DNA of 64,000 nucleotides from Ceratodon purpureus (Eukaryota; Streptophyta; Bryopsida; Pseudoditrichales; Ditrichaceae). The DNA lies in contig CM026426.1 of the NCBI GenBank assembly GCA_014871385.1, positions 84,970,927 to 85,034,926 of the forward strand, given 5' to 3'. The position numbers and the translations under genes are program-made. The notes beneath the pieces are model-generated. The model did no database searches. It saw only the letters and a list, made by a program, of their open reading frames with translations, and had not been told where the DNA came from. Each line of letters opens with the position of its first letter. Position 1 is the first letter of the stretch. Positions 5,759 to 55,258 of this stretch are shown here, one piece after another.

Positions 5759-5782
5759 GATATTTAGGTAATTCTGGACAAA
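5759..5782 (-). repeat. Candidate left terminal repeat of E1
   Basis: Read on the minus strand, the terminal bases TTTGTCCAGAATTACC then TAAATAT match TTTGTCCATAATTACT then TAAATAC at 21,618-21,643 in about 22 of 25 positions. The pair brackets all copies of the GTCGGC palindrome and all E1 genes. I take it as the E1 ends or part of longer AT-rich ends; no target duplication was confirmed. Confidence 0.45.
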
Positions 5783-6345
5783 AAAAAGTCCGAAATTCAA
5801 AAATGACCAATGCGAACTCAGCGGACCGCCGATGGATGGAGACCACAGATGAACAGTGTCATTGTACATGAATACCACAGAATATGGAATGCAAAACTAG
5901 ACATCCAGATGTGCATGGGCGGAATTTGCCACTGATGGATATATGAACCCGAAGATTGCGACATATAATGCAGAATAAGAGTTACAATGAATACTTTAAA
6001 GAATATCATGTTGATTCAAGTAATGAAATGTACAATACAGAGTCGGCGACCCGCCGATAATAGAACACGCTAAACTAACTAGTCCCGTAGCACTTTGAGT
6101 CATGAAGTCCTACAACATTAAGTCTACACCCAGCACTATGTACCAAGTTGACGTAAATCCTATCACATTATAACCTACTCGGAAAACTATTTCCCTGAAA
6201 GCATAGCCGTAAGGTCAATGAGTAAATCATATATTTGAAGGCCGCACAAACGGGTCGACCAAGTCGGCGGGCAGCCGATGGAAGGTGTTCTGTTGGTCAG
6301 GAGGAGGGAAGAAGTGCAAGTTGGAGGCGAAAAAGTCCGCCTAAC

Positions 6346-7020
6346 TCAGTCCCAGCAAACTTCAGTCCAGTCCACTCGTGCACGTCCAAACTTTCTCGCA
6401 GCTTCAATTGCCCAGTGCACTTGCCCCGGCCTACACGCCTGCGCCATATACTCCGGTAGAGATCCGAACTTGTGCAAGGGATAAACCAGAGGAAGGATAT
6501 CTGTAGCAATGTTAGGTATAACGCCGTCATCGTTCGGAAAGTTTAGATGACCCTGAAAAGGCCAAGGAATGTAGCACATACAGTTTGGTGTCCTCCTCAA
6601 TGACCTCGAGTCAACATCTACAAATAGCACCTGATCTAGTTTGCAGACGTTTCTAGACTGTACCTTGGAGCAAACTTGACCTAACGTCTTATAACTCCAG
6701 GGGAAATTCTCCCGGTTGATAAGGTCACTTCTGCTATACACGAAGGACAGCCTCTCCATTACACCGGCCGGCAGAATATGTGTGAGTAAAGGCTTCAGTT
6801 CTCCCAAGGGCATCTTCCACCACAGACCAACATGGAAATGCAAGAAAAGCATGTCGAAAAGCTTCTTCAAACCTGGGCGCTTCACTACATTCCGATGCGT
6901 ATCCCATGGCAAAGCCTCTATCCTGGGATCCACTTAGCAGAGAAGGCCATTGACGCATAGGACAATACTTTTCTTGACATGATGAGGTGGACCGTGAAGG
7001 CATTTGAAATAAAACGAGGA
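6346..7020 (-). pseudogene. FCP1/NIF-like gene, third copy, broken
   Basis: Leftward frame with the layout of an FCP1/NIF (HAD-type CTD phosphatase) domain. A strand reading KKSIVLCVNGLLC sits where the two intact-looking neighbours have LVLDINGLL and LVLDIKGLL. It is followed by an in-frame TAA near 6934-6936, then VVKRPGLKKLFDMLF, and later LFVDVDSRSL, HLNFPNDDG and a C-terminal helix. The first catalytic aspartate is cysteine and the frame has a nonsense codon, so an active phosphatase is not expected. The stretch downstream of the stop stays open for 195 codons. E1 palindromes flank it at 6263 and 7106. Family assignment comes from alignment by eye to the copies at 7333-8462 and 8687-9487. 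Confidence 0.55.
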
Positions 7021-7332
7021 ACCCTGAAGAATATGAAATGCAATCAGTGAAGGAAATCAAGGAACAGGACGAAGTATATGAAAGAAATGGACTACATTCA
7101 AAGTCGTCGGCGACCCGCCGACAAAACGATGCATTGAAGAAACCTCAAAGGTAAATGTGCAGCAAGTGAAATGCCATGCATGCATCTACAAAAAGAAGTA
7201 CCGAATTGCAGCACTGGAAACAATTGTGTGGTGCAGGGAAGTTCAGAAAGGGAACAGTCTTAGCGTATTAAACTAAAGAGTGCAGAGTATCATATGTGAT
7301 TTTTAAAACTAGTGGCGCCGCTGATATAGGCT

Positions 7333-8462
7333 CTAATCAGTCGGCTGCCCGCCGATGATGGAACTACCAGGGGCCTCCGGAGGACAAGGTAAATTCACAA
7401 ACCAAGATCCAGGATCACCCGGGACGTCGAACCCGCATGCATGAGAAGGAATAACCTCCCTATACTTCTGGTATTCGCGAGATCCTGGAAAAAGACGTGG
7501 CTTCCCCACGCTAGAATTCTTCCTACAATACTCCTGGACATCCAATCCAGACTGCTTAAGTCCTGCAAGGAATGGTGTACCTACCCTAGTTAAATAGGGA
7601 TTGGGGGTGGGTTGAGGTTCTTTGCACTCTGCAGAGTCCCAGAAAAAAGAATTAGGATGGACAGCGCTAAATGGATGATTAAGTACATTCCTATAAGGGC
7701 GGTGGTCTACCAGTAGGGTATTCTGGACAGTGGCACCTGATCGAGCCAGTAGCCTAGTGTCGCAGAAAAGTCTATCCTGACGCTTCAACAAGTACTCCCG
7801 TTTCCCATTCGGATTAGTCCTTGTTGAGATATCACACCAGAATCCTGGAAGGCGTCTGTAATTGCTCCTGAGAAAAGGATGAATGGCTAACAGCTTCTGG
7901 AAGTGACGATCGAGATTCTTTTCAGAAACCGTGGACCAAAAGACTACCTCGAAATTCGCCGTGCAGAACTCTAGAAATGAAAGAAGTCCTGGTCTAGCCC
8001 GGATATGAATTTTTGTCTTCTGGTCATCACCGATATACCCTGGTGCTCCGCGATGAGCAATCCCTTAATGTCAAGGACAAGGTAGTATCGTTGGAGAGGT
8101 ACCTCAATATTACGCGCAATAATATCAGTGCTGACACTGACGGAATCATCGCGCGGGGAACCGGTGCGCGGGATCGCGACGTTGGTCTCGACGAACGAGG
8201 TGGAAGCCATCGCACACCGGCCAGAGCTATGTGCAGCAGACAGCGTCGGCGGCCCGCCGACTGGATAGTCGTACTCGTCCTCCCCATCACTTTCATTCTC
8301 GGCTTCCGCTCCCGGAGACTCTCCTCTGTGAGCATCACCATCAGGAGATGTTGGGTACTCCTCCAAGAGCATACTAAGAAGGGAAGGTCCCTGGTGCACT
8401 TCAATTTCAGCGTCATCCTCCAGTGACTCCTGAAAAATGAAGGACACATTCCAAGAAAACAT
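7333..8462 (-). pseudogene. FCP1/NIF-like gene, second copy, frameshifted
   Basis: Leftward gene. An acidic N-terminal region (ENESDGEDEYDYP) precedes RYYLVLDIKGLLIAEHQG, equivalent to the first HAD motif; the frame then shifts near 8030. The continuing frame reads IHIRARPGLLSFLEFC, FEVVFWSTVSEKN, ISTRTNPNGKREYLLKRQ and LLVDHRPYRNVLNHP, ending PGSSIIGGQPTD at 7333. The order of motifs equals that of the 8687-9487 protein. Changes at key sites (DxK for DxD; DH for the later DD) suggest that any ancestral phosphatase activity is lost. The final residues are the translation of an E1 palindrome (7340-7356). One single-base indel explains the break, so a sequencing error is an alternative. Confidence 0.6.
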
Positions 8463-8686
8463 GGGTGATCAATCGCATGCTCACAATTCATACTTGCTCT
8501 AGTGTACAAATGGAGACACAATAAGACACCCACGACAGAACACAGAGTCTCAACACTGAGTTCCGTTCTCATATATTTAAAAGGAGGAAAACTTTATTTA
8601 CTGAAAAAGTCTAAATACATGAAGATCCCATCGGCGGGCAGCCGACTGAATCATGTGCATGCTCTCTAAAACAGTTTCTACATCTA

Positions 8687-9487
8687 CTATGTTCTCTTTC
8701 GTTTAGGGCAATCAATGTGTGGAGAGAAGAGACTATAAGCTTCATCCCCCGGAAACAGACGACGCTGACCGAATTCGGAGTGTTTCTGGCAGTACTCGGG
8801 CACGGGGAGTTTGGATTCTTTCAAACTGGTAAGCCAAGGAATCAATTCTCCAAGCAGATAATTCCTCTTATTTTCCGACTCCTTCGACTCGAAGGTATAT
8901 GGTGTAGGGTGCACAGCGTTCCAAGGAGTGTTTGCGACATTCTTATAAGGGGAATCATCAACCAAGAGAGTGTTAATTGAAGACGCCCCCGTCCCCTTCA
9001 GCCCGTCATCGAGGTCAAAGAGGGTCTGGAGTCTCTTCAAATAAAACTCCCTACTAGCCTTATGTACGCAAGTCTCGCAGAAACTCTGGTCGAACTTGTA
9101 GCGCACTTCGGCATCTAGACGAGGACAGCGCTGCTGCAACGCTGTCCACAGAATCTGGAACCTCTTTTCCTGAACGCAGCTCCAGAAGACCACCTCGAAA
9201 TTGTCCAGGCAGAACTCTAGGAACTTCTCTAAACCCGGTCTAAGTTTAGTATTCCACCTAGTACCCTGCTTCGTCTGGACTAATAGCAGGCCGTTAATAT
9301 CCAGAACCAGAAAGTACTTCAGCACTGGATCGTGTACCTGAGTACCAGCCTGTTCCGGGGCTATGTGAAGTGGATTCAGAGGTGGAGGTCCCTGCTCCAG
9401 AACTGCACTGGGTCTATCTTCGTGAAGTTTTCCATGGACTTCCTTGTCCGCGGACTCTGGAGTGACAGAAAACGAAGCAGAGGACAA
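8687..9487 (-). CDS. FCP1/NIF-like domain protein (266 aa)
   Basis: Uninterrupted 266-aa leftward frame. After ~55 residues of unstructured sequence comes LKYFLVLDINGLLLVQ (Asp at about residue 63), then LRPGLEKFLEFCLDNFEVVF, WSCVQEKRF, an insert, and NTLLVDDSPYKNVANTPWNA, ending CPKRKRT. This is the motif order of the FCP1 homology/NIF domain of the HAD superfamily, which removes phosphate from proteins such as the RNA polymerase II tail. The usual DxDxT nucleophile motif is DIN here (second Asp to Asn), so it may bind rather than hydrolyse, or use a relaxed mechanism. The basic tail could be a nuclear signal. It is flanked by E1 palindromes at 8630 and 9508. Two further copies follow downstream on the same strand, so this is a tandem family inside a transposon. 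Confidence 0.7.
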   Translation of the reverse strand: MSSASFSVTPESADKEVHGKLHEDRPSAVLEQGPPPLNPLHIAPEQAGTQVHDPVLKYFLVLDINGLLLVQTKQGTRWNTKLRPGLEKFLEFCLDNFEVVFWSCVQEKRFQILWTALQQRCPRLDAEVRYKFDQSFCETCVHKASREFYLKRLQTLFDLDDGLKGTGASSINTLLVDDSPYKNVANTPWNAVHPTPYTFESKESENKRNYLLGELIPWLTSLKESKLPVPEYCQKHSEFGQRRLFPGDEAYSLFSPHIDCPKRKRT

Positions 9488-9688
9488 ACGTGACGGTTAG
9501 GATGACGGTCGGCGGACAGCCGACTTGCAAGCAACATTATTTGAAAAAAGGGAAAGCGAACAACTTGGAATTTACCGAAAATTTATTCATATTTGGCAGT
9601 ATAAACATCTAACACAATCCTAGCGCCCGATCACTACACTAAATTATCAATGCAGGCATTTAAAAGATGGACTGGGCCACCGCCTGAT

Positions 9689-12600
9689 TCACTGACCTCC
9701 ACCTTTGTGCTTCTTCGGCCTAGGCTCCCGTTTGGATGCCCGCACAGGTGACAGAACGTCCTCTGGAGCGTCCACATTCCTGGGACTCATGAGCAGATCC
9801 CCAGATGTGCCCTTCTTGGAGGAAGTCTTCTTCGAAGCAGCCTTCCGTTTGCCCTTCCCAGAGGACTCCTCCCCTTCCTGAACCCCTGAGGAATCACGGG
9901 ATAAGTTACCCACAAGAGAGGAATCCTGCGCAGTACCATCGGTCTTACTTCTCTTCATTGATCGTGTCTTGACCAGAGGGTTCTCATCTGGGCCAATCAT
10001 CCGAGTTGCGCCCTTCACACCTTGAGTGACGAATGTGATTGACTTCCCTGTCAACTTGGTCTTGGCAGAGGGGTTAGATGAGGTTTGCTCGTCTGCCGTC
10101 GGCTGCCCGCCGACGGCAGCAGGAGGAACATGCCCTTCAATGCTCACTGCAGGCTCCTGGGTTGGCTTCAAGACACGGAGAACCACTTCATCGTCAGGCC
10201 TCGATGCTAGAGGAACCTGCATCTTCTTTGGACGCCCCGCCTGGTCTACATCACGTTCTGGCTTGGCGGGAGGAGTCTCCTGCTCTTGAAATGTAGGAGA
10301 AATAATACCGAAGCTGAGGGAGTCAGTTCCGGTCTCCCGTAGAACTTGCGACAGCGGTGGGTTCACGTAACGAGGATTCGATTCTTCCAGTGGTAATACG
10401 TCGGGTTCTGGTTCATAGTCTAAGTCCTCCGTGTCTCGCTCCTCTACCTCTGCATCTCCAGTTGGAATGAAAGCCTCAGCTTGGTCCTCCTCGTTTCTTG
10501 GCTGTTCCTCAGCATCTCCAGCTTCATCTTCAACGTCTGGGTCGGGTACATCTGGTGGCTCCTCGTCGACATCGTCGTCGGAGTCCAGATAACTCTGTGA
10601 GCGAACCCCCGCAGTCTTCCCCGAACCCATACATCCACCCTTTCCGACCAAATGGGCCTCCTCCGCATTCACACCCAAGTCGGCAGCCGTGAGAGAGCCA
10701 GTCCTGCCTCTAGCAGAGGCGGGGGCAGACGGCCCGGCCCCAGACTGCGTGGTCTGAACTGGAGCTTCGACGGGCATGTTATAAACGCCCAGAATGAACG
10801 TCATATTCCGAACCCGACAGTGCGCTTCGTATCTCTCTTCCTCGGTACGCACGATCTCAATTACAGTCAAATGGTTTTTCTGCAGTAGAACAAGACGAAA
10901 CGGTTAAGGAAATCTTCTACCCAAGAAACACGAAGGATTCAATCAGCGTCGGCTGCCCGCCGACGATCGGTGAGCAAACAGCGAAGGCACCAGAAGAGAC
11001 TGCAGTAACTTATCAGAGCGAGGGCCGTGACGTTCCCCCCTCCCCAGCAATTGATCACCCGAACGTCCTCAATCTGCATCGCTTTCTCCAGAAGAGATTG
11101 GAGGAAAGAGTAACTAGCGTGGCAGTGTCCATTTGACCAATCCTCCCCAAGATGATCTTCTCCTTCGTCCGCATAGGGAGGAGGCGGACGTTTCAAACCA
11201 GTGAAGTCCGAGAAGGTATTCCATGCATCCCCGGGCGTTGTTTTTGGATACATAACGGACACATGAACCTTGGGTCTAGAGTCAATGAGAGAACTCCTTT
11301 GAAACCCGGCGGAACTATCAGGAAGTACTGCATAGTATGAACCGTCCACGAATTACTCGTCAGCCTTGACACGCCTTGAAGAGTGTGATTACACTCAGCA
11401 TCGAGTAGCCACAAGGATGGGGTGACAAGCTTATTCACCTTAATTGTATCTACCTCCCCATCCAGAATGACCTCCTCCTCCACCTCAAGGTGAATCCTCT
11501 CAGCGACAGTTATAACGTGTTGTTGTCGCAAGTTCGGCATCTCCTTTCCCGCTGGATCGTAGCCAAAGACCACGAACATCTCATACTGCGCCTTGTTGAA
11601 GGAGAACGCTCCGCGAACGTCAAGAGCTGTGCACACTTCACCCAGGTCCTGTGCAATCCGAACATCGAACTGTACAGACGACTGCGAAGACTGGTCCACA
11701 TCCGACTTCCAGTACTTTTGCACAATGTCTTTGAAGAATTCTGGTGTTGGCCCGTGCGACGGCCCGTCCCTTAAGCCACTCCTTCCCCTCAGGACTATCT
11801 TCCAAGTCAGCCCGAATATTACTAACGATTGTATCATTGAACCCCTTCTCGACTTCAAGGGAATTCCAGTCATCCATGCTCCACTCAATATGCTTCCCAG
11901 TCCCTGGTTTCTTCAGTGCAAAGCCCCTGTAAATACACATGAGCTCGTTCCGGACAACATACTCGTATTTCACATGCTTACACCAATTCTCCACTGATGT
12001 TCCATCCAGTTGAACCACCTCTTTCCCAGTGACCTTGACGTACACTTTAAGGTCTAGAACTTCCTTGGCCAGCCTCTTGCATTCGTGGTCCCGAAGACCG
12101 ATCACGTACTGCATGTCGTTGAGTGTTATGTCCCAGCGGGCTGGCTTTGGGGGAAATCCTGGTTTTAAACCGTCCTCCCCGATGATCCTCCCCTCCTCCC
12201 AGGCGTTGAAGACCAGTTGCCACTCGTTGTATGTTTCGTCAGACACGAAGACTAAGGGCAGCTTCAAGGTTTGGGACGTAGGGGTCTTTCCGAGAATCGA
12301 ACTGAGGTACTCCTTGCAGAACTCCTGCAAGGAGGAAGAAAATGAAATCGATAAATAAATCCCACAATTACAATACGGAAAACCACCTGAGCGTCGGCGG
12401 GCCGCCGACGACTTTCAACTACATGTAGACAACAGGAAAAGAGGAAGATGTGAATTACCTTCCATGCGCTGAAGTCATCTTTCTTGTCGATCCTCCCCCG
12501 CTCGATCCATTTTGCGCGCATCTTCGCCAGCTGGGACCTGAAACTTACTTCGGCGACTTTATCCTTCACCTCGATGTTTAATGCGTTAGAGACCTTAATG

Positions 12601-13850
12601 AGGGTATCCTTGTTATCAGCATATACAGGAATGATGTCGTGGTTAAGGTAATACTGCCGCATAGGAGAGTCCAGTGGTTCCTTCTCTCCCAGTTCTCGAC
12701 AAGCCTCAAACGTGTGCTGACCCCCAATTATGTACCAGTGGATGCCCTCATCTTCATACCAAGGTACCAGCTTAGATGTACCGTCATCCAGTGTAAGTGA
12801 ATACTTGATATTTAGGGCATGCCAAGGTCGAAGAAGTCCTTCCAAGCCTTTAAGCTTAATCTCGCCCGTCACTGGATCCTTTACTCTGGGGTCACCACTC
12901 ATAGGAAGGCAGTACAGCTCGGGCTTCTTCCGGATTGCTCCAAGTCCTTTGTAGAAAAGACTTATCTGATCCTGCCTCTTCCTGAATATCGCTCTGTACT
13001 TAAATTCGTCGGGAGCTATGTGTATCCTGTTATATGGAATCTGACAAGGAAGGGCACGTTGCCCGTTGGGGAAGCAGTGCCCAAGTCCCTCCTCCAACGT
13101 CTGGTACATGGCAAGGACGTCGGTGTCCTTTGTTTTGGAAGTGAGATTGTTTGCGAGCATGAGAGCTTCCGCCACGGTCTGCTTCTTCTCTTCCTTCTTC
13201 CCACCTTTCTTCTTCCCACCCTCGCCCTCAGCAGCCGCTGCCTTTCCCTTCTTCCTTCTCGATGACTCCCCTGTCGTCTGTGTCTCTCCGGTCTCGGGGG
13301 TGACTGTACCAGTGCCCGCTTCTACAGCAGACTTGCGGCCGCCTCTTTTCTTTGCTGAAGGCTTAACCGAGTTCTTCGTCTTCTCTTCCATCACTTTGTC
13401 CCCGAGCGTATCAATCACGTCGAGTATTTGATCAACAGCTATGTTCTCACCCCTGCCCCAAGTAGCCGCATCCTGTACTTCTTTAGAGCACAAGCCGTCC
13501 ATGCACTTCTCAACCGGAATTACAACCGCGAAGCAGTCCACTCGTGTGCCCTCCGCGACAGGAACCGATGCAAACACCAAGCACACGTTGTCGTTATCCT
13601 CGCATTCCCTGGCACCAATAATCTCAAATCTTGGTCCACCTGCCATTTGCTTCTGACCTATTTTGGTCACAAAGCCCAGCGACGTGGGAGTGTCACGCCA
13701 GGTGATGCCCCACTCCGTTATCTTCAGATCAACGAGGAATGTCACCCTCGGTTTCAAGCCCCGTGCTTGTATTCTTCCTTCAGGATCAACAACCTTGTCA
13801 CAGAGCCACCGTAACCCATTTGGTTGTGCGGTGGGGTCGACCATCGCCCT
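9689..13850 (-). pseudogene. ParB-like gene with possible MTase-like region
   Basis: Leftward multi-exon gene. Exon 1 (13,844-12,459; an acceptor-like site just before the first ATG suggests an upstream non-coding exon) encodes an N-terminal region, a Lys/Glu-rich linker (~residues 150-225), an extended domain and, near residue 373, WYIIGGQHTFEACREL followed by DIIPVYADN. This resembles the ParB/sulfiredoxin GxHR box. A GT-AG intron (about 12,458 to 12,325) holds an E1 palindrome. Exon 2 changes frame near 11,765 and again near 11,352. Its end reads EDVRVINCWGGGN and the last exon (10,881-9689) starts KNHLTVIEIVRTEEER. The pair is reminiscent of motif I and the following acidic strand of a class I methyltransferase, but no clear (D/N)PPY was found. 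The last exon is otherwise acidic, then Lys/Arg-rich (nuclear-protein-like). The two frameshifts suggest it is broken. Confidence 0.55.
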
Positions 13851-13889
13851 GCAAAATCAGAATCACAAGATTAGACCATCAGATTCTCA

Positions 13890-14485
13890 CTCCATCGGCG
13901 GACAACCGACGAGGGGGATGGACACTCCCTCCCCATCGGCGGACAGCCGACGAGGGGATGGACACTCCCTTCAATCGGCGGACAGCCGACGAGGGGGATA
14001 AACCCAAATCAGAAACCCTACATCGGCGGACAGCCGACGGGGGAAATAACCCATGTGAGAAAATAGAAAATTGAAGGACTCAGAAAGGGGTGGCGTTGGC
14101 GGTCAGCCGACGGGAGGAACAAACCCATGCGAGAGAACACAAAACTTGAAGGACAAAAGAAGGGGTGGCGTCGGCGGACAGCCGACGCCACGGGACAAAC
14201 CCATGCGAGAAAACAGAAACATGAAGGACAAAAGAAGGAGTGGCGTCGGCGGACAGCCGACGGGAGGGACAAACCCATGCGAGAAAACAAAAACATGAAG
14301 GACAAAAGAAGGAGTGGCGTCGGCGGACAGCCGACGGGAGGGACAAATTCATGCGAGAAAACGGAAACATGAAGGACAAAAGAAGGGGTGGCGTCGGCGG
14401 ACAGCCGACGGGAGGGACAAACCCATGCGAGAAAACGGAAACATGAAGGACTCAAGAAGGGGAGCGTCGGCGGACAGCCGACTTG
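13890..14485. repeat. Tandem repeats built around the E1 palindrome
   Basis: Three units of about 40-48 bp (palindromes starting near 13,893, 13,934 and 13,974) lead into a ~74-bp array with palindromes at 14,022, 14,095, 14,170, 14,245, 14,319, 14,393 and 14,466. Each unit carries GTCGGCGGACAGCCGAC plus a purine-rich filler. The array lies between the divergent ParB-like and transposase genes, upstream of both, where an operator or transposase-loading array would be expected. Confidence 0.9.
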
Positions 14486-15328
14486 ACAACTTACCCACTC
14501 TCGGAGGCTGCCATAACGTCGGCGGATGGCCTTTCACCGTCGGCGAATGACCTTCGAACAGCAGCCGACGCGCGCAGGTGAAGGAGCCGACGCCCTCAAC
14601 CCTAGCAGCCGACGCAGAAAAACCTAGCAGCCGACGCGACCTCTGCGGAGCACTGAGAAGAGGACAAAAGAGAGCTGAAAAAGAGAAGGCTGGAAATGAG
14701 GAGGAAATGTCGGGGGTGGCGGGTGTATACCCTGCAGACCCCCACCTCCCGAGACTGAATCGTCACGCCCGATGGGTCATGACGTATGGCTATGTACATA
14801 CCATCCATGCATGGATGGTCATCCCTAACATCTGTCCCATCACGCCACGTAGGATGATGATGGGACGTCTTTTGACCTTTTTTCAATCCGTCACCAAGTC
14901 ATGATGGCGTGGGCATGTGATGTGACAGCTGCTCCAATCGCCACGTTCAAATTCGTAATAATGAACTAACATTGTTGTGTGACGGTGGGGGTATCTCGCC
15001 GCCATGATGGGATCTTGATCTGTCCAAGGCGCGCAAAATTGAATTCGATTCTGGCGCCAATTTGTACTCCTGGGAATTCATAACTAACCCCCCGTCAGAT
15101 GCGCATACTTCATTCTATTTCTGTCATTGCACTTTCGATTCCCTCTGAGAGTGCTCCTGACGCACACGTTTCTTGAGAGGACCGTTATTATTCCCGCATG
15201 TGCTTAACTGTCCCGCACCTTCTGTTGCCGTTTCTGTTGTCTTCGTCTATCGTTTCTGATTGGACGGTTGAGAGGAGTCTCTGATTGGACAGGTTAGGGA
15301 CAGCATACTGCTTCTCAACTAAGGTCCC
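14486..15328. promoter_or_regulatory. Divergent spacer between the two main E1 genes
   Basis: About 0.85 kb with no supported gene, separating the leftward ParB-like gene from the rightward transposase. It starts with half-palindromes (GCCGACGC, CAGCCGACGC) around 14,560-14,640 and ends with half-sites at 15,340 and 15,361. Both promoters must lie here if the genes are transcribed as drawn. No TATA box or start site was assigned. Confidence 0.45.
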
Positions 15329-19434: not shown

Positions 19435-20084
19435 TCGGCTGCCCGCCGACGATTGTGATCTTAGCTGAAGAAGATGTAGCTAGTGATGGTTTCCTCTGTA
19501 AACGTTATAGTTGAATATTGTAAACACTGTGATTCCTTCGAATAAGAATTGTATTCTACCATAGACCCAATACTAGTCATGTATTACGCTTTGTCTTCTA
19601 TTTGTTGATCTGATGCCTTACTTTTCCTTCTTCGGTGGTCGTCGGCTGTCCGCCGATGCCTCTAACCATGTTAGATAAGCATCATGAACGGTGACTTTGT
19701 GAGGCTGGTCTATATTGTATGGCCTGTGATTTTTACGGTGGACACTGTTACTCTAGTCGGCTGCCCGCCGACGCTTTCCACAAAATTGGTAGAACCACTA
19801 TGCGCTTTGATAAACTGATCAAAAATATTTATCCATTTCATTATATTCTTATCGGAGTACAACGGTAGTGTTCCGCCCTTTACATGTTACTTTGTATTGT
19901 GTATACATCAGAGATGCCACTACTCCTAAAGCCTCAGTAACAAATGCTAACCATGAATTCTACAACTATCCGAGTGTCTGAAGCAGCTCTATTGAAAACG
20001 AGCTGGACAATTCTAACACACACTAATTCACCCTAAAGCCAAAAAACCAAAAAGCTGCATATGGTCGCCAACGCCATGTAGCGA
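19434..20084. other. 3' spacer of the E1 transposase with palindromes
   Basis: No gene seen. A perfect E1 palindrome starts at 19,434, the last base of the transposase stop codon. Further copies are at 19,641-19,657 and 19,756-19,772. The ~650-bp stretch presumably holds the convergent 3' ends of the transposase and the small leftward ORF. Confidence 0.55.
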
Positions 20085-20606: not shown

Positions 20607-20779
20607 AACGACAAAATATTGGACAATATGCGACTAACTTCTACAGTATGCGACCTGCTTCTACAGTATGCGACCTTCTTCTACAGTGGACAGCCGACGA
20701 GTTTGTCTAGTAAACTGGTAAACGTTCTAGTAATCCACTTCTCTAGGGTTTTCGGGACGACTAATTGCCAACGTCGACC

Positions 20780-21617: not shown

Positions 21618-21643
21618 TTTTGTCCATAATTACTTAAATACCC
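21618..21643 (+). repeat. Candidate right terminal repeat of E1
   Basis: TTTTGTCCATAATTACTTAA then ATACCC, the inverted partner of 5759-5782 (about 22 of 25 bases). AT-rich DNA of the same repeat family as 5400-5660 follows directly outside it. Confidence 0.45.
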
Positions 21644-22900: not shown

Positions 22901-22907
22901 CGGATGA

Positions 22908-27021: not shown

Positions 27022-27029
27022 CGAATATG

Positions 27030-42140: not shown

Positions 42141-42450
42141 GGAGAACGCTATTTCGCATGTAGGAATGGTGGGTCCCGTCGCGTCGTGCGCCGTGGCCCG
42201 CCACGGTGGCCACCTGCGTTTTCCTCGATCCGGCGGTTTCGGTAACTCGCGAATCCGGTAAAATCCACCTCACGCGTGACACTACGAGCCCCGAGACACT
42301 CCGCCCGTCGAGGCGCATGTGACACTAAACACTGCCTGACCCCGAGACACTGGAACCGACGATCTGGCCGTGAGCCCGAAAAATATGACGTCACACCGAC
42401 GTCATAAACCCGCATCGCCCAACATGTCTCGACTAGGGTTTCCAGTGTCT
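42141..42450 (+). repeat. MULE left terminal inverted repeat (310 bp)
   Basis: Begins GGAGAACGCTATTTCGCATG. It matches the reverse complement of 54,940-55,249 with about nine mismatches in 310 bases (about 97%). Contains GTGACACT at two places and a GACGTCA pair. Confidence 0.95.
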
Positions 42451-42869
42451 CATCAGGGCATTGTTGACGACGGAGGACAATGAGAAATCATGGCGCATTG
42501 AGGTTCAGGCAGGAGGTGTGTGGTTTGTAGGGTTTAGTGATCATTCAATTAGAGTGTAGGATATGGGGTTGTTTTGAGGATCAGGGTAGAATGTTTGTCG
42601 CAGGAAGTCACGTCTCGCCAAGTTGGAGAGGAATTCATCATTGGGCCATCAATATGATAATTGCTGCAGATTTGACACCTTCGAAAACGCGCTGGGGTAG
42701 AGCCTTCAAGGAGTCCAGGGCTTGTTGCAGCTGCTACCGGTGGTATGGAGGTATGGATTTTAGAGGTTTCTGAGAGTATTTCGTGTTCTCTGTTTCGGTT
42801 TAGGGTTCTCTTTTTTGTTGCATTGAAACCTTCACAACCCATCTGACTGACATCTGCATTGTGAGCAGG

Positions 42870-45800: not shown

Positions 45801-48418
45801 TTACTTTGCTGCCCTATGCACGGCTTAACGGAGGAGGTAATTAGAGAAGAGTGCAGAAGACGTATCAATCTCGAGAGGGCGCTCACTACATTTCTAGCTG
45901 AGGGTACTTATCTTCACGGTGGGATTCAGTTTGGATTAGGAGACACGCTGCGTCTCAGAGTCCAAGATGAAGTGGACAGAATAACAGGAGGAGACGGATG
46001 TGATATAATCCAGGGCGTGATGGCGTGGGTAAGGAGGGTACAGTTACGGGCATTATAGGACTTGGCGGTGTGCCACGCAGTGGCATTCAGCACTGCATGG
46101 TGTACGGTGCGACACGAGATGTGGTTAGAAATATCACCAACTTGGAGGTGGGTGCTGCGAACGAGAGAAGAGCACGACATCGGATGGGTTCCTTCTATAG
46201 ATACACCCAACTGGAATCCCCGAGTCGGTGCTTTACGTATGGCAATTCAGAAGCGGGTCAGCAAGGTGGGGGACGCTCTCACGCGTGCGGATATCGCAGA
46301 CTGGACAGTGTGTGCTCGGGAGTCCGACGGCGCGGATACGTTGCCACTAGATGAGCCGACGAAGGTATGTTCACTTGCAGAAGACTCGGGGCCAAAGGAA
46401 GACAATAGCGACACAACGCTGAAGGTCGTAGAAGAATCCATGGGGACGGTGGCCAGTGTCACAGACGATGAGTTGGTTCAAGAAGATTTAAAGGATGTTG
46501 GTGACATTGGCGCCTGTGACACCAACAGTGTCACTGTGAATATGGAGGTCAGTGACACAGTGTTAGAGACGAAAGTCGACTTTGGCTCTGGTTCGTTTGC
46601 CAAAACCGGTACTGATTCAGAGACCGTCTTGGAGATTAGCCACGTGGATGTCCAGGATAAGGGGACACTGAAAATATTACCTTCTGACAGTACTGTGGTC
46701 AGCACAATCAAGAGTCAGGCCGATGATACGGTCGGACACATAGGGAATACCGGAGAAGTTCCCGACGAGCTTACGCGATATAGTTCGGTGAAGGGTGTGG
46801 GTTGCGTAGAGACCACTGGTATGGAGAAGATACCTACTGCTGCCTCTCCTACGACATCTACTGGACCACGTACGAGGAGCCTGACAGAGTGTACTACCGC
46901 GGGTACGGTGTTTCCGGAAATAAGGAACATACTCGAGGAATCAGACGCTTCTCAGGGACCTCCTCCACTCTTGACACTGAGCCAATTTCAGAATACAGCC
47001 CACGCCGGTGACGATATGGTGGAAGAAGACTCCCTCCGATTTTCCCAAGACCCTAGCTTTGTACAGTGGATGAAGGCTCCACAGGACTTACCTCTTCAAA
47101 CACCGTACAAAGGTGTGTCTATAGTGACAAGGCATTCGGGTGTGGAAGCTGAGGTCACGGAAGGGAACGAAGTGGATGTTGAAGGACCGGTGAAGGATTC
47201 GGCAGTTCGGAATCTACATGAAGCCTTTGAGGAGGAACAGCAGCTTGAATCAACAGCGGAGCAGCTGGTGGACCTCTCCCAACGGACTGACCCACAGAGT
47301 AAAGAGCAGATAAACCCGGTCCCTCGAAGGCAGAAAGAATTCGACCGTGCCATGGCATTAGCCCCATGGGCCGGCGGTGCTATTGTAGGAGTGGAAGATG
47401 TTAGGCTAATGTCACTACCCGAGGCATATAACTTCTTACACGTAGATGAATTCTTGCAGAGTTTGCCAGGACGAGGAGGTCGTAGGGACGGTGCTACGGA
47501 GGTCGTTTTCTACAACAAAAAGCAGAAAGAGGTCGAGGTCCGATTCGAGGCGATTAGGGCACTTAAACGTGTGAGAGATAGATTGGGGAACGATATTGTG
47601 GACTTTGCGATGTCCCGGCTGTACTTGCAGTATCCTGCTACTCATCGTCACGAAATATTATTCGTGACATCACGGGTTAGTTCTGCTGCACGACCCGAGT
47701 TATCTAAGGAAGACAGCGTACTGAAGTGGGCATCTGTCTTTTTGCAGCCACCCGCCCCTGTTCAAGTGCATCAGATTAAGGAAATACTTCTGCCTTGGGT
47801 AGTGCGGGATCACTGGTCTCTATTAGTGTTCAGGTTCGATAAGGTGTTCCATTTAGATTCTAGGAAAGGTAATCACCTCAATGCGAGGTTTAAGGATACG
47901 GATTTTGTGAAGGGAATCTATCATGCGTGGCAGCACGTTAGAGGGGTGGAGTTCTACGAAGTGCCGATTGTCACACTGGATGTCACTCGTCAGAAAGGGA
48001 CATATGAATGTGGGCACCACACTTTACACAACGCCATGTTGTATTTGAAGGTAACTCTATCCTCTTATTGATCTTTTATACTGATTGATATGTCTGTATT
48101 TGCCTCTAGTGTAAAACGATGCACATGTTGACCTCGTAAAGTCCTATACCAGAACCGTGCCTGTAGTATGTGACTGTTATATGTGACACTGGAATGCAGT
48201 TCAGGGCATGGCGGTTTGGCCAGCGGGATGAGTTGCTGAAGGTAGCGCTGTTGGAGCCGTACAAGCCGAAGGTTCTAAACCAGGAGCTTCTATGCCTACT
48301 CGCCCGCGAACTCAACCCCAACAGACGTGACACTCGGTATAAGGCGCCTTTCTCTGTCCCGGAGAACAGGAAATCATTTTCCCCGGAGGAAGGGGCGGAC
48401 GATGTGCAGTTACTCTGA
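42870..48418 (+). pseudogene. ULP1-like cysteine protease gene of the MULE, broken
   Basis: Exons visible: ~42,870-42,922 (SSAEAPLESESIFWSIPR); ~43,139-45,120 (VENNDENWFYKPVHCQHNCG, then VYEVTYPSQRRVQDLQ, a finger-like CIHCGEGCFSNKMMLNRH, and a long acidic/basic variable region); ~45,209-45,577; ~45,681-48,050; and 48,200-48,418. In-frame TGA at 43,516 and TAG at 43,714 and 46,056 interrupt it. The ~45,120 donor reads AAG/GCGAGT, perhaps a decayed GTGAGT. The C-terminal ULP1 (C48) domain shows RDHWSLLVFRF (His), VFHLDSRKGNHLN (Asp) and GTYECGHHTLHNAML (Cys), i.e. an intact His-Asp-Cys triad. C48 proteases cleave SUMO-like modifiers. Several GTGACAC motifs fall within exons. The phase at the 45.6-kb junction is not resolved. 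Confidence 0.7.
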
Positions 48419-50658
48419 ATGAAGTAGGCTACTCTATGATTTACGGGGAATGACGTATGAAGATCTAACAAAGATTCTCACTGTACTTTACGTTTCACTG
48501 ACTCTACTTAAATATATGACAATTCCAATTCCCTCCCCGTGACACAGAAGTGTAAACTTGTGACACTGAACTTCTGTGACCTGTGATGTCCGTAGTTGTC
48601 AGTGACTAGAATGTGACACTGCATATCATATCATCGCGTGTTAGTATAGACAGATATCTTCCGTTAAAGTGTTTATTTTAGACACTCACTATTGATTCAG
48701 CGATTACTTTCACTATCGAAGACGAACAAAACCGTACTACCAAAATGATTAACGCACATTATCGGAAATACCAATAACCGACAGTGTCACTAGTTATTCT
48801 AAATCTGATGTTTTATATATTGCATAGGATAAATGTACAAATGTCGTACAAGATCCAAATATTACATACTGTTTAAGTATTTTTTTCGGAAAGTATTTCG
48901 AATAATTATATAATAGTGGAATATAAGCCTAACGTCTGGAATATATTCACGTAGTTAGAGAAAAAAATACGTGTACAGTATTATGCCAATATTTTTATTT
49001 ATTCATTTAAATAACTTATTCTCATATCTCAAAACTAATCATGCTATTATAATAATTGAATATAAATTTTATTATATATCACACTACATGTAATAGGGAG
49101 TATTAGAATTCAAATTGAAGTAATATTTACTTCCTGAAATAAAATTTCGTGGCGTACATATTTAGAACATATGTATAAACCCCTATAACACAAATTTAAC
49201 ATTTTTTTTCCCAATAATAAAATACCTACGCTATTTTTTTTTTTTTAAACAGGAAACAACATAAAAGTTTGGGTCGACATTCAACATAATCATTTTATAA
49301 ATCACAATCACTTCGTCACACTCAACCGCGATAAAAAAATATGATATGTATATCTTATTATACTGTGGTTTTCATCTAACATAGAATGTTCAGATGAAAA
49401 CTAAATCTCAATTTCATGCAATGAGTATTTAAAAAACTAAAATAAAATAAAATGACATCCTGTCATCTTAGTGAATACGGTTACAGTATAATATATATTT
49501 TGTATTAATTCCGAGGTATATTGCTTTACTTTGAGTTGTACCGTGGAAAGTGATTATATCTAAAATTTTCATTTAGAAAGATGTTTGCACTAAGCATTAT
49601 AAGACTCACGTCTTGTAAGAAAATGTATTCCACCTTTGTCTTAACGATATTTAGGACTAGGTTCTTGTTATAAGATAAACGTACATGCAGAGGATGCTTC
49701 CAACTACGATAAGTTAACGATTTTCTGCAGTGGAATATGTGAGATAATTCAAAATTGAAAGGAGCGTTCAGTATTTGGATCTTTTATGGTGATGAAACTG
49801 CACCGATTCTTGGTGACACTGACTGCGCGAGACTCATATTCGTATATCATTCAGTATTCGTACCGTCAACGTCACAACTTTGTGCAATCTTTACTTATTA
49901 GATACTAACATCGTATAATTCGTCGATGTACATGGTAAGCTATTAATCAAGACTGAACCCAGTGTCACCAAGAGATAAAATATCAGTGTCACAATCTCAG
50001 TTCTTCGTACTACATATTTTTAACAGAGCATTTCTAAATATTCAATACCCACACACACTGAACTGAGTACGATTACACTACTTACCACTATAGTCACTTA
50101 TGTTACACTCCGCCTCCTCGCCTAGTCCGCTATAATACTGCTTCAAAATCCACGATGAATCATCGAGAGTCTTCTCAGGTAACTATTGAAATAACTCCGG
50201 ATGGACCTCGCCTTCTTGATTGCCTATCCCCTCGTCACGTGAACAGCACATGTTGTCCTTCATGCGGTTATGTTGCCGGCAGCGGAAGCAACATTGCGAA
50301 GAGGATGGTGGATCAAAAGGAACATCTACAGCACTAGGATCCGGGGAGTTACTTAGAGGTCGACATGCTTGCCGGATCGTGGATACATTGCGAAAACACC
50401 CACCGAAAACACATACGAACAGAAAAGTACACCCCAGGATTGCTACCTCTACAGAACCCAACTCGAGCCTCACTTCAAAAGTAAACATATTTGCAGATCA
50501 ATCAAAACAACAAATGAAGACTCTAACATTTGAAGACAGTCGTTTACCCAAGGAGAGGAATCCCTAAAGTACCCTATCACACCCTATGAAATTCGAATAT
50601 TCCAGGAAGAGTGACTAAGAAGTTTCAATCCTAACCCGGATTGCTTGCACTGCCTTGG
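48419..50658. other. Convergent intergenic region of the MULE
   Basis: No gene supported. 48,540-48,620 and 49,810-49,990 carry clustered GTGACAC motifs. The centre (48,650-49,700) is very AT-rich. A short frame at 50,155-50,337 is not convincing. It separates the 3' ends of the two MULE genes. Confidence 0.55.
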
Positions 50659-53600
50659 TCAAAGTTTACGGGCGACTGGCGGACCTGAATGCTCTAGGAA
50701 GTCCTTTCTCCGACCCAATTTGAACCCTAACCCGTCATTTACACTGAAAAAAGCAGGTTCTCCTACTACCGGATGCACTATTCCTTCTCGCCTCTCTGCC
50801 TTCATTCTCCTCAAGCGCCCGAGTGTCAAGTTGAACTCAGCAACGAGGTGCTCCATCATAAAGGAATCCCCATTAACCTCCTCGGACAAGAGCATCACTT
50901 GCTGATACAAAGTGTTAGGCAGATCTTCTGTTCGACACCTTTGAGGGGCTTGATTTGGTGTAACGGGTACGCTGGCAGAATCCCCGGATGGCGTGAAAGG
51001 GAAGTGTGACTCTACATTAGTTTGTCGACGAGGGGTCAGTAGCTGTTGTAGGCCTCTGTTCACAGTCCCGGCCATTCTCCCACAACATCGTGCAATAGTT
51101 CCTTCAGCAAGGTCTGGGTTCATCATGGTGAGGACCTTCACATGATGTTTGCACATGTTACCCCGTTGTGCCCAAACGCAGTTGCACACTCCCCATTCCA
51201 AGTCAGGGTTATGTACCGTGTAACGTAGATGCCGATGCTCAGTGGAGGTTACCAAAGCGAATCCACCCTCTACCTCCGGCAGTGTCATGTCAGTATCTGG
51301 TATTTCTCTCGCTTTAAGAATAGATTCAACTGTGATGTCTTGGAGTTTCTTATTGTCCACGAAGCCGTTCTCCTTGCAAAGGTCCTTGAACCAATAGTGG
51401 TCGAGCACATCCTCCGTTAATGCAGTGATGCACCAATCCACTCGTCGCCCGGTCATCCTACTCCTTTCATACCGTAATATGGACTTCGCAAATCCGTGGT
51501 AACCCTCAATGGCCGCATTTGTGTCTTGACCGCAGTATTTAAGGTTCCTGAATCCCACAACCCACATGTGGGCCTTCTCGACCCAGTACTCTTTCATGTA
51601 TTCCCAGAACTCCATCTCCTGAGGATATTTTTTCTCTAATTCTTCAATGCGTGACTTTGCCCATTCTTGTCCCTCCACCCCAGGTCGAGAACTTTTGTCA
51701 TACATCATTCCACCGAGCTCTTTCATAATAGCTGCTCTTCTAGCATGATCAGGTATTTTATAACATGAATTTTTCTGCCACGCCCTTCTCACATGCCAGA
51801 GACATAGCAAAATCGACGTTTCTGGCCATACCTCGCTGCAGGCAGTGTCACGATACGGAATTAAGGATACATAACCGCATAGCACATATGGGACTTGAAT
51901 CAACATGTGCAAAAGAAGTTATTGTTTCGACATAACACTTCGTGACACTGACGCGGAAGCCGTGACATTCAGGTGACAGAACGTGACGTTTTTAACCATG
52001 GACCACTAAATAGTTCTATTGCAGTTGTGTTATAGAAATGTGCGACATTGTGCATCAGAGATGTAGGAAAGGGTGGACTCACTTTATCGCATTGATTTCC
52101 CCTTGTGCGCAGTCCACAATGAACGCAGCCGGTTTCCAATCAGGCTTATCTTCCACCATTCGTGCATTCGGTGCCCTCATCCACGGAGTGAGGTCCACTT
52201 CAGCACACTTTGACGTAAGGATGAATGCCACTCGGATTCCATTGTGCCATTCGTCGAAGACCATGAGTGTGTACAGTGGGAACTATGTCAAACAAACAAT
52301 CCCAACCAGCCGGAGTTCAAGCAATTCTGAAAAAGAGATCAGTAAAAAATGAGCGTACAACAGTTCACACAAATTACAGTCACCCGTTTGAGCTTCATTT
52401 GCCGCGTATTGAGCACAACTCTGACGAATCACATAGTGGGTTACATAATGCTGACCTTTCTCTCGTTCGTTCCGAACGAGGCGTCTACTGAAACTGGCCA
52501 TGCTGCAACATCATCTCTCGCTGCCACTCCGTTTGTATTCCAATTGTGAAAGGCATGTTCGAGCCAGTGAGTTCTCCGGGAACTATAGTGGGCTTCTCTT
52601 TATTTGGTTCGGTGTAGTAGAACACATTCTTGGGATTTCTCTGTACCCACATACGGACACTCTGAGCGTCGTTTTTGTGCAACATGTAAGTCTCTTGGGC
52701 CAACTTACCTGAGATATTGCGAATGTCCTTTGTCGTGAGAAACAAGTCCCGCGTGATGTCCTTCCCTTCCGCCTTATACTGCTTCAGCAGGTCAATATGC
52801 TTCCTTATGATCTGGTTTGGAGTGTCTCTACGCCGCAAACAGTCCTCGACAAACGACCTTATCTCAGGAGATAGATGAGCAGAAAACGCGCTCCGATCTC
52901 CGATCTTCATACCTCCATGTACTATAAAACCGTCTTGGTTTACGTGCTTCTCCTGAATAATACAAATCTCCGAAATGTGCGGTAAATAAAGGAGCCGCTT
53001 CACTGTGAATTGTGCTTGGCAGTCGCTCTTGATTGAGTTCCCCCATCTCTTCTTGGAGTCACGTTTGATCTTTGGTCGTGGAATCGAGGCGTTGGTCTTC
53101 TTTTTTGGATCTGGAAATTCCGCATCCGGAACATCTTGACCCGGGTCCACGACTTCCCTCGGTCCTACATTGCCGTCCTCCCCCGACTCCGGTGTCACAG
53201 ATGCAGCAATCTCTTCCCTGAGCGCGTCTGCAGTGTCACAGAGTATTGATAGCAATGGTGGGAGACCTTGGGAGACACCTATACAATCGACTACGGAGGG
53301 ACTGTCTGAAATCGGTAGAGCAGTCTGTGCTATAGGTGGCAGAGGTAATTGTTCCACAGTACAGCACCCACCTGACAACCCGCTGACGGAACTATGCGCG
53401 TGACACTGATGCCTGTCTGTCTGTGTCACAGGAGTCTGTTTTTTTTTTGCGGGGAGCATATTTCCGCGTTGGTTTTTTAGACACCTTTCCAGTAGGGGGA
53501 AGTGAAGGCTCGCAATGTTTCGCAATTCCAGGTAGAGCAGAAGGAAACTGGGGCTCCCCGGATTGAGGATGTACTGAAGCAGCTTCGGTGCTAGCAGTAA

Positions 53601-54297
53601 GAGGTGCACAAGGCAAACAGCCCCCTGCAGCTCCCTGCAGAAGATCTAGGAATCCCTTCTTTTTCCTCGGGGCTCTCTTCTTCGGCGGTGCGACATCCGT
53701 TACACAGCCAGAGTCCGACGTAGCAGGACATTCAGAACATGCGTCTGCCTTCCCTTTTGCGCGTGACACTCTCTTCCTAGGTTTTATCGAAGGTGTCCCC
53801 TTGACGGTGACACTGGTCCCATTTGAAATTGGTACAGTCTTCTTCCTACTAGGCTTCTTCCTCGCAGGTACAGAAGCGGTACTGGTGTGATCTTCGTCCA
53901 CTGGCAGCGCATTCAGGTCCGGAATGTCACGTACATTAGCAGTTTCAGCAGAGCCCTCACATGCCACTGCAGACAGAGTCTGTCCCTTCGCCTTCCTAGG
54001 ACTTCGCCTCTTCGGAGAAGGAACCGGGTCCTGTACCATGCAGTCCATTGCGTCCGTGACAGGTGTCTTCGACTTGAATTTGCGTCTCCGCTTCCTTCCC
54101 GGTGAACTCTTAGTCCTTTTCGCTCTAGCTTTCCGGGTCGGGGCGAGTGTGCTGCCCTCAGGAACACAGTCGGGAACCCTAAGTTTTTTTTTAGGCTTAG
54201 GGAGGAGGTCCTCAGAGATTGGCTTCACAATATTTGAAAAATCCTTCGGTCCGTATTCGCATCTGAACCTGTGAAGGCAACAATAGTATTTGTCCAT
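50659..54297 (-). pseudogene. MULE transposase, frameshifted
   Basis: Leftward. N-terminal part (54,297 inward) is Lys/Pro-rich with repeated RKK blocks (NLS-like). The frame changes at a run of ten T at about 53,438-53,447, then runs to ~52,500 (RWGNSIKSDCQAQFTVKRL, YYTEPNKEKPTIV), where a one-base shift precedes SVDASFGTNERK, holding the likely first catalytic Asp. After an intron, FPLYTLMVFDEWHNGIRVAF, then PDWKPAAFIVDCAQGEINAI (second Asp), to ~52,081. After another intron the exon from ~51,840 gives ILLCLWHVRRAWQKN, then TNAAIEGYHGFAKSILRYER (candidate Glu), and a SWIM finger GVCNCVWAQRGNMCKHHVKV, ending at 50,659. Motif order and SWIM finger identify a MULE transposase. The two frameshifts suggest inactivity, though the first is in a homopolymer. 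Confidence 0.8.
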
Positions 54298-54939
54298 CTC
54301 GACTCATGTTGGGCTTACGGTTCTCCTTGTTAGCACGGAATTTGCACTGTGCACCTTCTCGACCACACTGCATACCTTCAATGAAGTCCCGAACTCTATC
54401 AGTGGGAACATAGCATTGTTGAACTACGTGAGATTTCTTGTGCTCACCTCGTGGGGGACGATATTCGAGCTCCCAGCTCAGATCGCGCGGTCCGAAAATG
54501 CCTACAGGAGGGTACTGAACGCGGTCCTCGATTGCCTATAATAAGAGTTTATGGTTGTCAATGCCACAGGGATCTACATCTAACCTAACACCATCGACGT
54601 CCATTGCACCTGGTAACACTGCGTTAATGCCCTCCTGGCTGCCCATCGAGATGACGATGTTATAGTCCACAGACGTAGACAATCACCCGGATCCTAAATG
54701 CCGCAACCGAGGAATGGGCTTTGGGTGGTATCACAGAAACCCTACAGAGGAACCGTAGTGACATTGATCATCTGCAGAGACGGCGTACATCTCGTGAGTA
54801 CCAAACGACCCCACAAACATTACAATCACAATGCATTCCCGGTATCAGAGAAGAAGAATACGTCGACAAAGAAAAACGATCGAAGCCATCAATCGACAAC
54901 TGACGAGGAGCGAAGCGAATACAAAAACACTAGAAACCT
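54298..54939. other. Upstream region of the MULE transposase gene
   Basis: No supported gene; presumably the promoter and leader of the leftward transposase gene, next to the right inverted repeat. Confidence 0.4.
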
Positions 54940-55249
54940 AGACACTGGAAACCCTAGTCGAGACATGTTGGGCGATGCGGGTTTATGACGTCAGTGTGAC
55001 GTCATATTTTTCGGGCTCACAGTGAGATCGTCGGTTCCAGTGTCTCAGGGTCAGGCAGTGTTTAGTGTCACATGCGTCTCGACGGGCGGAGTGTCTCGGG
55101 GCTCGTAGTGTCACGCGTGAGGTGGATTTTACCGGATTCGCGAGTTACGGAATCCGTCGGATCGAGGAAAACGCAGGTGGCCACCGTGGCGGGCCACGGC
55201 GCACGACGCGACGGGACCCACCATTCCTACATGCGAAATAGCGTTCTCC
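54940..55249 (-). repeat. MULE right terminal inverted repeat (310 bp)
   Basis: Inverted partner of 42,141-42,450, ending GCGTTCTCC at the right edge. Differences are clustered in three small blocks. Confidence 0.95.
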
Positions 55250-55258
55250 CAGGAATTC
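55250..55258 (+). repeat. Target-site duplication of the MULE, right copy
   Basis: CAGGAATTC, identical to 42,132-42,140. Confidence 0.95.

Follow-up and report, generated by a model that had tools for sequence, protein, structure and literature searches.

Transposons with a DUF7869 transposase carry short palindromic words that are private to their family, and these words are probably sites for a homodimeric protein that the element itself encodes, which would regulate or de-silence the element and perhaps mark its ends. The window, that is the whole 64,000-nucleotide stretch of Ceratodon purpureus DNA that was analysed, holds two such transposons, E1 and E2, both with short terminal inverted repeats (TIRs) and 4-bp target-site duplications (TSDs). 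An earlier note on the window had proposed that four neighbouring elements each repeat a short palindrome of their own. The short repeated palindromes are real and hold genome-wide; the E1 palindrome was counted 2,858 times in 362 Mb and the E2 palindrome 2,293 times, versus 3 and 0 for the respective controls, in which the word was reversed and thus likewise palindromic with identical letters.

Two DUF7869 transposons and their palindromic sites

E1 (5755..21646) is a 15.9-kb DUF7869 transposon lying inside E2, as delimited by its other copies and by two empty sites. It has an imperfect TIR, AAGGGATATTTARGTAATT, and a TSD of AAAC (5751-5754 and 21647-21650); TSDs of TTAT, ATAA and ACAT flank three further copies, and the 4-bp TSDs of these four copies, together with the two empty sites, are its features of mobility. 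E2 extends past the left edge of the window, so that its left end lies outside; the left part (1..5754) was recognized by alignment to copies at C1:0.30 Mb, C1:18.43 Mb and C2:0.62 Mb, and the right part (21647..27034) ends in the TIR ...ATCTCCCAAAATAACGAATATGGTGTT. One E2 copy is flanked by the TSD ACAA. The transposase of E1 is represented by reading frames of 708 and 678 aa (15323..19434, plus strand) with a DUF7869 domain at about 18082-18513 (PF25273, E=9.9e-44, 149.7 bits against a cut-off of 26), and that of E2 by an ORF of 954 aa (23187..26051, plus strand) with the domain at about 24801-25229 (E=2.6e-42, 145.1 bits, same cut-off). E1 also encodes, on the minus strand, an accessory protein of 530 aa (12264..13856) containing a GGQH-x6-EL stretch, to which a protein of E2 is 23% identical; profile and PDB searches with the accessory protein returned no credible relative, and the GGQH stretch presumably resembles ParB/DGQHR domains. 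A NIF/FCP1-like domain (PF03031) is encoded at 8687..9496 on the minus strand, with further matches over the cut-off at 7333-8064 and under it at 6346-6933.

Seventeen exact copies of GTCGGC-N5-GCCGAC were found in E1, with a constrained spacer, mostly KGNCM. When compared with GTCGGCKGNCMGCCGAC, 27 sites had at most one mismatch and 34 at most three, all of them within 5817-21281; at up to three mismatches there were none elsewhere in the window, and 200 dinucleotide shuffles of E1 yielded no exact palindrome. Part of the sites form an array of 40- and 74-bp tandem units (13894..14482) between the divergent accessory (minus) and transposase (plus) genes. The 18 sites with at most one mismatch outside this array stand in differing sequence contexts, and those within ORFs occur in more than one reading frame; one at 15839..15855 (plus strand) is translated as VGCPPT, and a second instance lies at 16196-16212. 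Near the two ends are variant sites, CTCAGCGGACCGCCGAT (5817..5833) and CTCAGCGGGTCGCCGAC (21265..21281), each identical in 4/4 copies.

The E2 word occurs in the window as three exact 21-mers, as five copies of its 15-bp core and as nine sites with at most five mismatches, none of which falls outside E2. Five copies in steps of 47-48 bp form an array (22907..23117) directly upstream of the transposase gene, and further E2 sites, at 2894, 3984-4055, 5514-5613 and 7147-7591, lie inside or upstream of minus-strand ORFs. The earlier note had put the copies at 25 or more in E1 and at about 10, full or diverged, in E2, and the counts bear both figures out. Copy number owes much to tandem amplification, a process by which even a functionless word can multiply. 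CpGs are present in the words of both E1 and E2.

E2 has a second class of site, TTTAGGTCGA-N3-GACCTAAA, which lies near both ends and differs from the internal class by one base per half-site. It was found at 336 places genome-wide, versus none for the control. In the window it is represented by TTTAGGTCGAGGCGACCTAAA (26340..26360) and by a decayed site at 26494. Sites of this terminal class flank 16 of the 17 scored E2 transposase matches in the listed range on both sides (two of these copies with a wider spacing of 23-27 kb) and the remaining one on one side only.

Within the E1 family, no significant constraint on the sites was detected among 23 copies at four sites; variable columns numbered 15/56 versus 212/933 (p=0.51), and variants common to at least two copies 1/56 versus 52/933 (p=0.36). 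One locus, L047 (C9:13.32 Mb), which is homologous over 198 bp only, was removed before the second E1 count, and the test including it was likewise not significant. A smaller test, on four copies and 18 sites picked by their match to the consensus, gave 3/240 at fixed positions versus 30/716 in the flanks (p=0.039).

Privacy of the words and covariation with the transposase

Among the places listed, 49 of 50 lay within E1 or E2 copies, and on contig C1 41 of 42 did; lone words outside the elements included an E1 word at C1:2805555 and an E2 word at C1:15616582. Four additional DUF7869 lineages, E3, E4, E5 and E6, were sampled. Across 13 sequences of E1-E5, the words of E1, E2, E3 and E5 were never found in another family (the table leaves out the word of E4). 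A scan for recurring palindromes with 6-bp arms gave 17 for E1, 23 for E2, 8-15 for E3, 8-13 for E6 and 4 for the CACTA stretch; the MULE and L020 gave 2 each, E4 and E5 1 each and seven other stretches at most 2, as did 20 shuffles of each of 20 sequences. L020 contains an E2 end, and its two palindromes are E2 terminal sites. The PF25273 domain gave 150 scored matches among 1,398 candidates in the genome, and none in 14 control genomes.

In the families sampled, the word changes with the transposase. E3 and E6, whose transposases are 88% identical, have a common word, TTTAGCTCA-N3-TGAGCTAAA; in E6 this E3 form is accompanied, downstream, by two sites with a hybrid centre. E2, at 45-47% identity over the N-terminal part of the transposase, has the same half-site, TTTAGCTC...GAGCTAAA, around a different centre, GANTC. 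E1, E4 and E5, at 40% identity or less over that part, have unrelated words. Sites upstream of the transposase gene were present in 6/6 families sampled. The covariation that the earlier note had asked about was thus observed in the families fetched; five different words enter into it, those of E4 (thin) and E5 being the weak ones. Within the 4.75 kb read, the E4 word occurs once, and 4 of its 9 loci in the genome adjoin scored DUF7869 matches; the E5 word sits in a long, diverged ~69-bp satellite, with 2 of 7 loci away from scored matches. Both had been missed by the recurring-palindrome scan and were picked up through a tandem-repeat listing and a near-palindrome scan; E5 was dropped as a clean case on account of its satellite.

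The retention of the word between E3 and E6 is not shared by its surroundings. Their ORFs are 79% identical in nucleotides, and their upstream and array regions gave 40-95 raw alignment matches, none of which persisted after the word was masked. The upstream regions of E2 and E3/E6 gave no match except six in one sequence, E3_980, the best of which, of 117 bp, overlaps an AT-repeat tract. Elements with the transposase and no motif had been named by the earlier note as evidence against its reading. Both scored E2 transposase copies on C1 have motif clusters (48 of 1,759 candidates were scored), and 7 of 9 scored matches in the E3/E6 range (profile match ending at 192; C1-C5) lie near an exact CWG or CAA form. 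Two matches, C2:9202855 and C2:21531229, had no exact site nearby with either centre, these being the only centres searched.

The CACTA end and the MULE

The palindrome of the CACTA end, TGTTCGGGCCCGAACA, is within the window confined to the element end, as had been claimed; four exact and two one-mismatch copies all lie in a single seven-unit, 53-bp tandem array (33937..34304), directly inside the terminus CACTACCAAAAAATT at 33793. Genome-wide it was counted 60 times, versus none for the reversed control. It is an ordinary subterminal array in the textbook arrangement, as the precedent cited in the earlier note would have it.

The MULE (42141..55249) has 310-bp TIRs (97%) and a 9-bp TSD, CAGGAATTC, features that it has in common with Mutator-like elements. 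About 30 copies of GTG-W-CAC had been reported in it, and GTGWCAC does occur 33 times inside the element; shuffles of the MULE gave a mean of 2.2 and a maximum of 6, so that here, as in E1, the enrichment over shuffled sequence holds. It is found twice in the remaining 50.9 kb of the window, one of these in E1, and is therefore not strictly private; in the 13-sequence table this 7-mer appears once per E1 copy. GTGWCAC as the MULE word is superseded by a directional 8-mer, AGTGTCAC, dispersed through the element (26 observed versus 0.7 expected, in the window only), and "palindrome" is therefore only partly right for the MULE.

This 8-mer brings the MULE closer to the VANDAL precedent than the earlier note foresaw. 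In the available parts of the published accounts (PMC5735166, PMC10398659), the VANC21 word YAGTATTAY and the VANC6 words AGTTGTCC and AGTTGTAC are not palindromes, and VANC21 words occur in one orientation and mainly in non-coding sequence. AGTGTCAC begins with AGT, as do AGTATTAY, AGTTGTCC and AGTTGTAC; unlike the VANC21 words, it occurs in both orientations and also within ORFs, and in this respect the precedent does not fit. The four MULE ORFs scanned gave no Pfam match, the MULE transposase domain and DUF1985 included, and DUF1985, the domain of the VANC protein, likewise gave no match in the ORFs scanned in E1 (10) and E2 (one).

Possible readers of the words

The name DUF7869 (PF25273) was not met in the literature searched, and there are therefore no described sites for comparison. 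As far as the portions of the VANDAL work consulted go, E1-E6 resemble the VANDAL MULEs of Arabidopsis in having a family-private short word, dense in the element and partly in tandem, with word and protein both varying between related families; they differ in that their words are palindromes of 17-24 bp in another transposon group, some E1 words lying in ORFs. With the CACTA TNPA/TNP1 systems they share repeated, element-specific words that diverge between subfamilies, the CACTA words being bound by an element protein; CACTA sites cluster at the ends (PMC2613891, in the part available), whereas E1 and E2 sites are mostly internal, E2 having in addition a terminal class of its own.

We reasoned that each DUF7869 family would have its own palindromic site for a homodimeric DNA-binding protein encoded by the element. 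Through arrays preceding the transposase gene, and likewise the accessory genes of E1 and E2, this protein may activate or de-silence its own family only, and the altered second class near both ends of E2, and possibly of E1, may mark the ends for transposition or self-limitation. Site and protein would diverge jointly, and related families would therefore keep the half-site first while the centre changes, until distant families have nothing in common. The address-code reading of the earlier note thus stands for the privacy of the E1 and E2 words and their covariation with the transposase; the part played by an element protein we infer. For two candidates, the E2 transposase (3 sequences) and the E1 accessory protein (1 sequence), AlphaFold gave mean pLDDT values of 34 and 36, and because of these low-confidence folds no DNA-binding domain was assigned.

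That the words serve transposition only, with a TNPA-like protein or the transposase pairing the ends, is unlikely. It would agree with the variant sites that lie near both ends of E2 in 16 of the 17 copies checked and near both ends of E1 in 4/4 copies, and with the recognition of subterminal repeats by TNPA of En/Spm (available part of PMC2613891); most E1 and E2 sites are, however, internal, with the arrays before genes many kb from the ends, and the internal and terminal classes of E2 differ by one base in each half-site. We consider it quite improbable that the words are host-factor sites or targets of host silencing by small RNA. The available part of the VANDAL work (PMC10398659) names tandem repeats as a possible source of siRNA and target of RdDM, and the CpGs of both words would suit such a role; yet a host factor gives no reason for the word to change with the transposase family, and small-RNA targeting predicts neither dyad symmetry nor the loss, between E3 and E6, of all but the word.

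An arbitrary, functionless palindrome spread by neutral tandem duplication and gene conversion would account for arrays whose repeat number varies from one element copy to another and for the roughly ordinary rate at which E1 sites decay after insertion, but it is very unlikely given the 18 E1 sites outside the array, in varied contexts and more than one ORF frame, and the survival of half-sites between families with unalignable flanks. Returning to sites for an element-encoded protein, we tentatively suggest, as a bolder version that may well not hold, a two-tier code in which a strict promoter palindrome serves de-silencing or activation and an end variant, changed by one base per half-site, serves transposition. 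A single element-encoded reader would serve both, its specificity repeatedly rewritten with the transposase; the VANC principle would then have been reinvented outside MULEs in a dimeric form, sometimes overriding coding sequence.

To our knowledge, VANDALs are the main case in which it has been worked out how selfish DNA locates and shields its own copies while leaving the host undisturbed. The DUF7869 elements are a second transposon group, unrelated to these, in which three private words are clear, half-site and centre change in a natural series, and each family has dozens of copies within a single moss-like genome. They make it possible to test how a DNA-binding protein and its site co-evolve, and they could yield new sequence-specific binders, and perhaps de-silencers.

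Words of the E1 and E2 transposons

E1 (window 5755-21646) and E2 (window 1-5754 and 21647-27034) are neighbouring transposons that each encode a PF25273/DUF7869 protein, and E1 is nested in E2, since two other E2 copies contain the empty site. E1 copies terminate in AAGGGATATTTAGG and are flanked by 4-bp duplications (AAAC for the window copy; TTAT, ATAA and ACAT for three further copies); E2 is ~18.9 kb long with the TIR AACACCATATTCGTTATTTTGGGAGAT, and its copy at C1:0.30 Mb is flanked by the 4-bp duplication ACAA. Further coding capacity in E1 comprises NIF/FCP1-like domains and an accessory protein of 530 aa with no fold assigned, of which E2 encodes a 23%-identical counterpart. The accessory-protein search yielded 81 scored matches among 622 candidates (91-100% identity), and the E2 transposase search 48 among 1,759 (94-100%).

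The earlier note held that each element repeats a private palindrome, and for E1 and E2 this was borne out by counts in the window, in shuffled sequence and genome-wide (362.5 Mb in 151 contigs; C6, which carries the window at 84970927-85034926, is 110.5 Mb). The E1 word occurred 17 times exactly in the window, as GTCGGC-N5-GCCGAC, and 27 times with ≤1 mismatch and 34 times with ≤3 mismatches to GTCGGCKGNCMGCCGAC, all inside E1; shuffled sequence contained no exact copy. Genome-wide the word was found 2,858 times versus 3 for the control, a palindrome of the same letters made by reversing the word; the E2 word was found 2,293 times versus 0. Among 50 listed places of the E1 word, 49 lay in three E1 copies, and the stretch surrounding the remaining one (C1:2805555) contained no E1 match; on C1, 41 of 42 E2 sites lay in the two copies found there by protein search. 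When any five central bases were allowed between the E2 half-sites, 3,532 sites were counted genome-wide, with the centres GANTC (2,293), ACWGT (439), ACAAT (157; 62 + 95, either strand) and others (643).

In E1 the accessory gene and the transposase gene point away from each other and the main array separates them; variant sites (CTCAGCGG...) lie near both ends in 4/4 copies; some E1 words fall in open frames of predicted gene models, read as VGCPPT, VGGQPT or RGLPAD. In the C1 copy of E2, arrays lie directly upstream of the accessory ORF (7147-7591; ORF 5646-7121, minus strand) and of the transposase ORF at 15102 (14639-15016), with exact or one-mismatch sites at 2894, 3984, 4055, 5514, 5582 and 5613. 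A second E2 site class near both ends, TTTAGGTCGA-N3-GACCTAAA, was found at 336 places genome-wide (control 0). Within the range listed on C1-C5, it stood on both sides of 16 of 17 scored E2 transposase hits, two of these with wider spacing (C5:206970 and C5:3574992), and on one side alone at C4:16947211.

Related families and their transposases

From 150 scored DUF7869 hits, 4.75 kb was fetched around six, along with two pieces of a seventh and the flanks of one E5, one of four further families (E3-E6). The E3 word is TTTAGCTCA-N3-TGAGCTAAA; its AGCTCA-N3-TGAGCT core recurs ahead of the transposase gene, 15 times in L025, 12 times in L026 and 5 times in L029. E6 (L031, L032) carries the E3 word in a 13-copy array, with two more sites shortly before the transposase gene; downstream of the transposase, L032 also has sites at 3447 and 3609 (TAGCTCGATGTGAGCTA) whose hybrid centre is half E2-type, half E3-type. 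In E4 (L028) a single perfect palindrome of 24 bp, TCCAGTAGTCAATTGACTACTGGA, lies 1.1 kb upstream of the transposase gene. Its 18-bp core occurred 13 times at 9 loci genome-wide (control 0); four loci had two copies 6.9-16.3 kb apart, and scored DUF7869 hits adjoined 4/9. Two E4-type loci with the same palindrome and DUF7869 layout, C2:22311570 and C2:22333753, are 22,183 bp apart, apparently through local duplication. The E5 word (L027, L030), GGGGAG-N-CATATG-N-CTCCCC, belongs to a long satellite. It was found in 17 places, which fall into 7 loci; at five of these it precedes one of the five top-scoring DUF7869 hits by ~2 kb. Upstream of one E5 DUF7869 gene, L033 (C6:87541450-87544449) consists of ~3 kb of a roughly 69-bp satellite containing CATATGCCTCCCC-like units. 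DUF7869 hits at C6:84407513, 84409825 and 84412137, exactly 2,312 bp apart, appear to be a tandem triplication of a 966-aa-type transposase. Among 13 sequences of E1-E5, the E1, E2, E3 and E5 words did not occur in any family but their own.

Transposase identities are given as two values, one for the stretch spanning the zinc-like cysteines and the HTH-like region and one for the catalytic part, domain names being assigned by eye. They were 88/88% between E3 and E6, 45-47/58-61% for E2 to E3/E6, 37-40/51-52% for E4 to E2, E3 and E6, 28-31/39-44% for E1 to E2-E4 and E6, and 16-22/29-34% for E5 to all others. The words followed this order, from identical at 88%, through a shared half-site with a new centre at 45-47%, to unrelated below.

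The ORFs of E3 and E6 share 79% DNA identity, and upstream of them only the word aligns (40-95 hits raw, 0 once masked). E2 did not align upstream with E3/E6 except for six hits of one E3 sequence, E3_980, the best of which (117 bp) overlaps its AT-repeat tract. Among four E1 copies, at 18 non-array sites chosen in a way that favours this outcome, 3/240 fixed, 5/51 degenerate and 30/716 flanking positions varied (fixed versus flank, p=0.039; fixed versus degenerate, p=0.005). At four sites in 23 E1 copies, word and other positions did not differ significantly, and shared variants were too few to be informative; changes unique to one copy were no rarer in the word than outside it, a pattern expected of changes that postdate insertion.

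The MULE and CACTA words

The enrichment claimed for the MULE (window 42141-55249) stood, but its palindrome gave way to AGTGTCAC (26 observed versus 0.7 expected), present in both orientations and partly within ORFs, where TGTGACAC was repeatedly read CDT. The C-terminus of MULE ORF 46059-48071 looks like what we take to be a Ulp1/C48 SUMO-protease; a Pfam scan of this ORF returned no hit. In PMC5735166, the VANC21 word is YAGTATTAY and the VANC6 words are AGTTGTCC/AGTTGTAC; AGTGTCAC resembles these, a likeness of words that by itself does not establish homology.

At the CACTA end (window 33793 onward), the palindrome proved to be a 53-bp subterminal array, in the same arrangement as TNPA-type sites (PMC2613891), in agreement with the precedent named in the earlier note. 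Window 55260-64000 contains a CACTA tnp2 transposase (PF02992, E=6e-55, 56302-57441) and a DUF4216-like ORF scoring slightly below cut-off (59446-60414); together with the terminus CACTACCAAAAAATT (33793), this region may form a single large CACTA that the MULE splits. Immediately left of the terminus (30005-33718) are broken SWIM-type transposase ORFs, their Cys/His pattern judged by eye; Pfam returned nothing in three of the four at E<=1, and the remaining ORF (31646-32236) likewise had no match at E<=10.

Candidate readers of the words

The words are dyad-symmetric and private, they lie ahead of genes, and they change as the transposase changes; together these features point to a dimeric, element-encoded binder. 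From covariation alone, the reader could be any one of the co-inherited element proteins. That the words serve transposition only is unlikely, that a host factor reads them is less likely still, and that they have no function we regard as the least probable of these. 'DUF7869' was absent from the literature searched, preprints and most subscription papers lying outside the search; among the matches listed, the VANC work came closest to family-specific or palindromic anti-silencing words. We think it probable, judging from sequence, that the words are sites of a putative dimer encoded by the element, which would recognise its own palindrome before its own genes and thereby regulate or de-silence the element.
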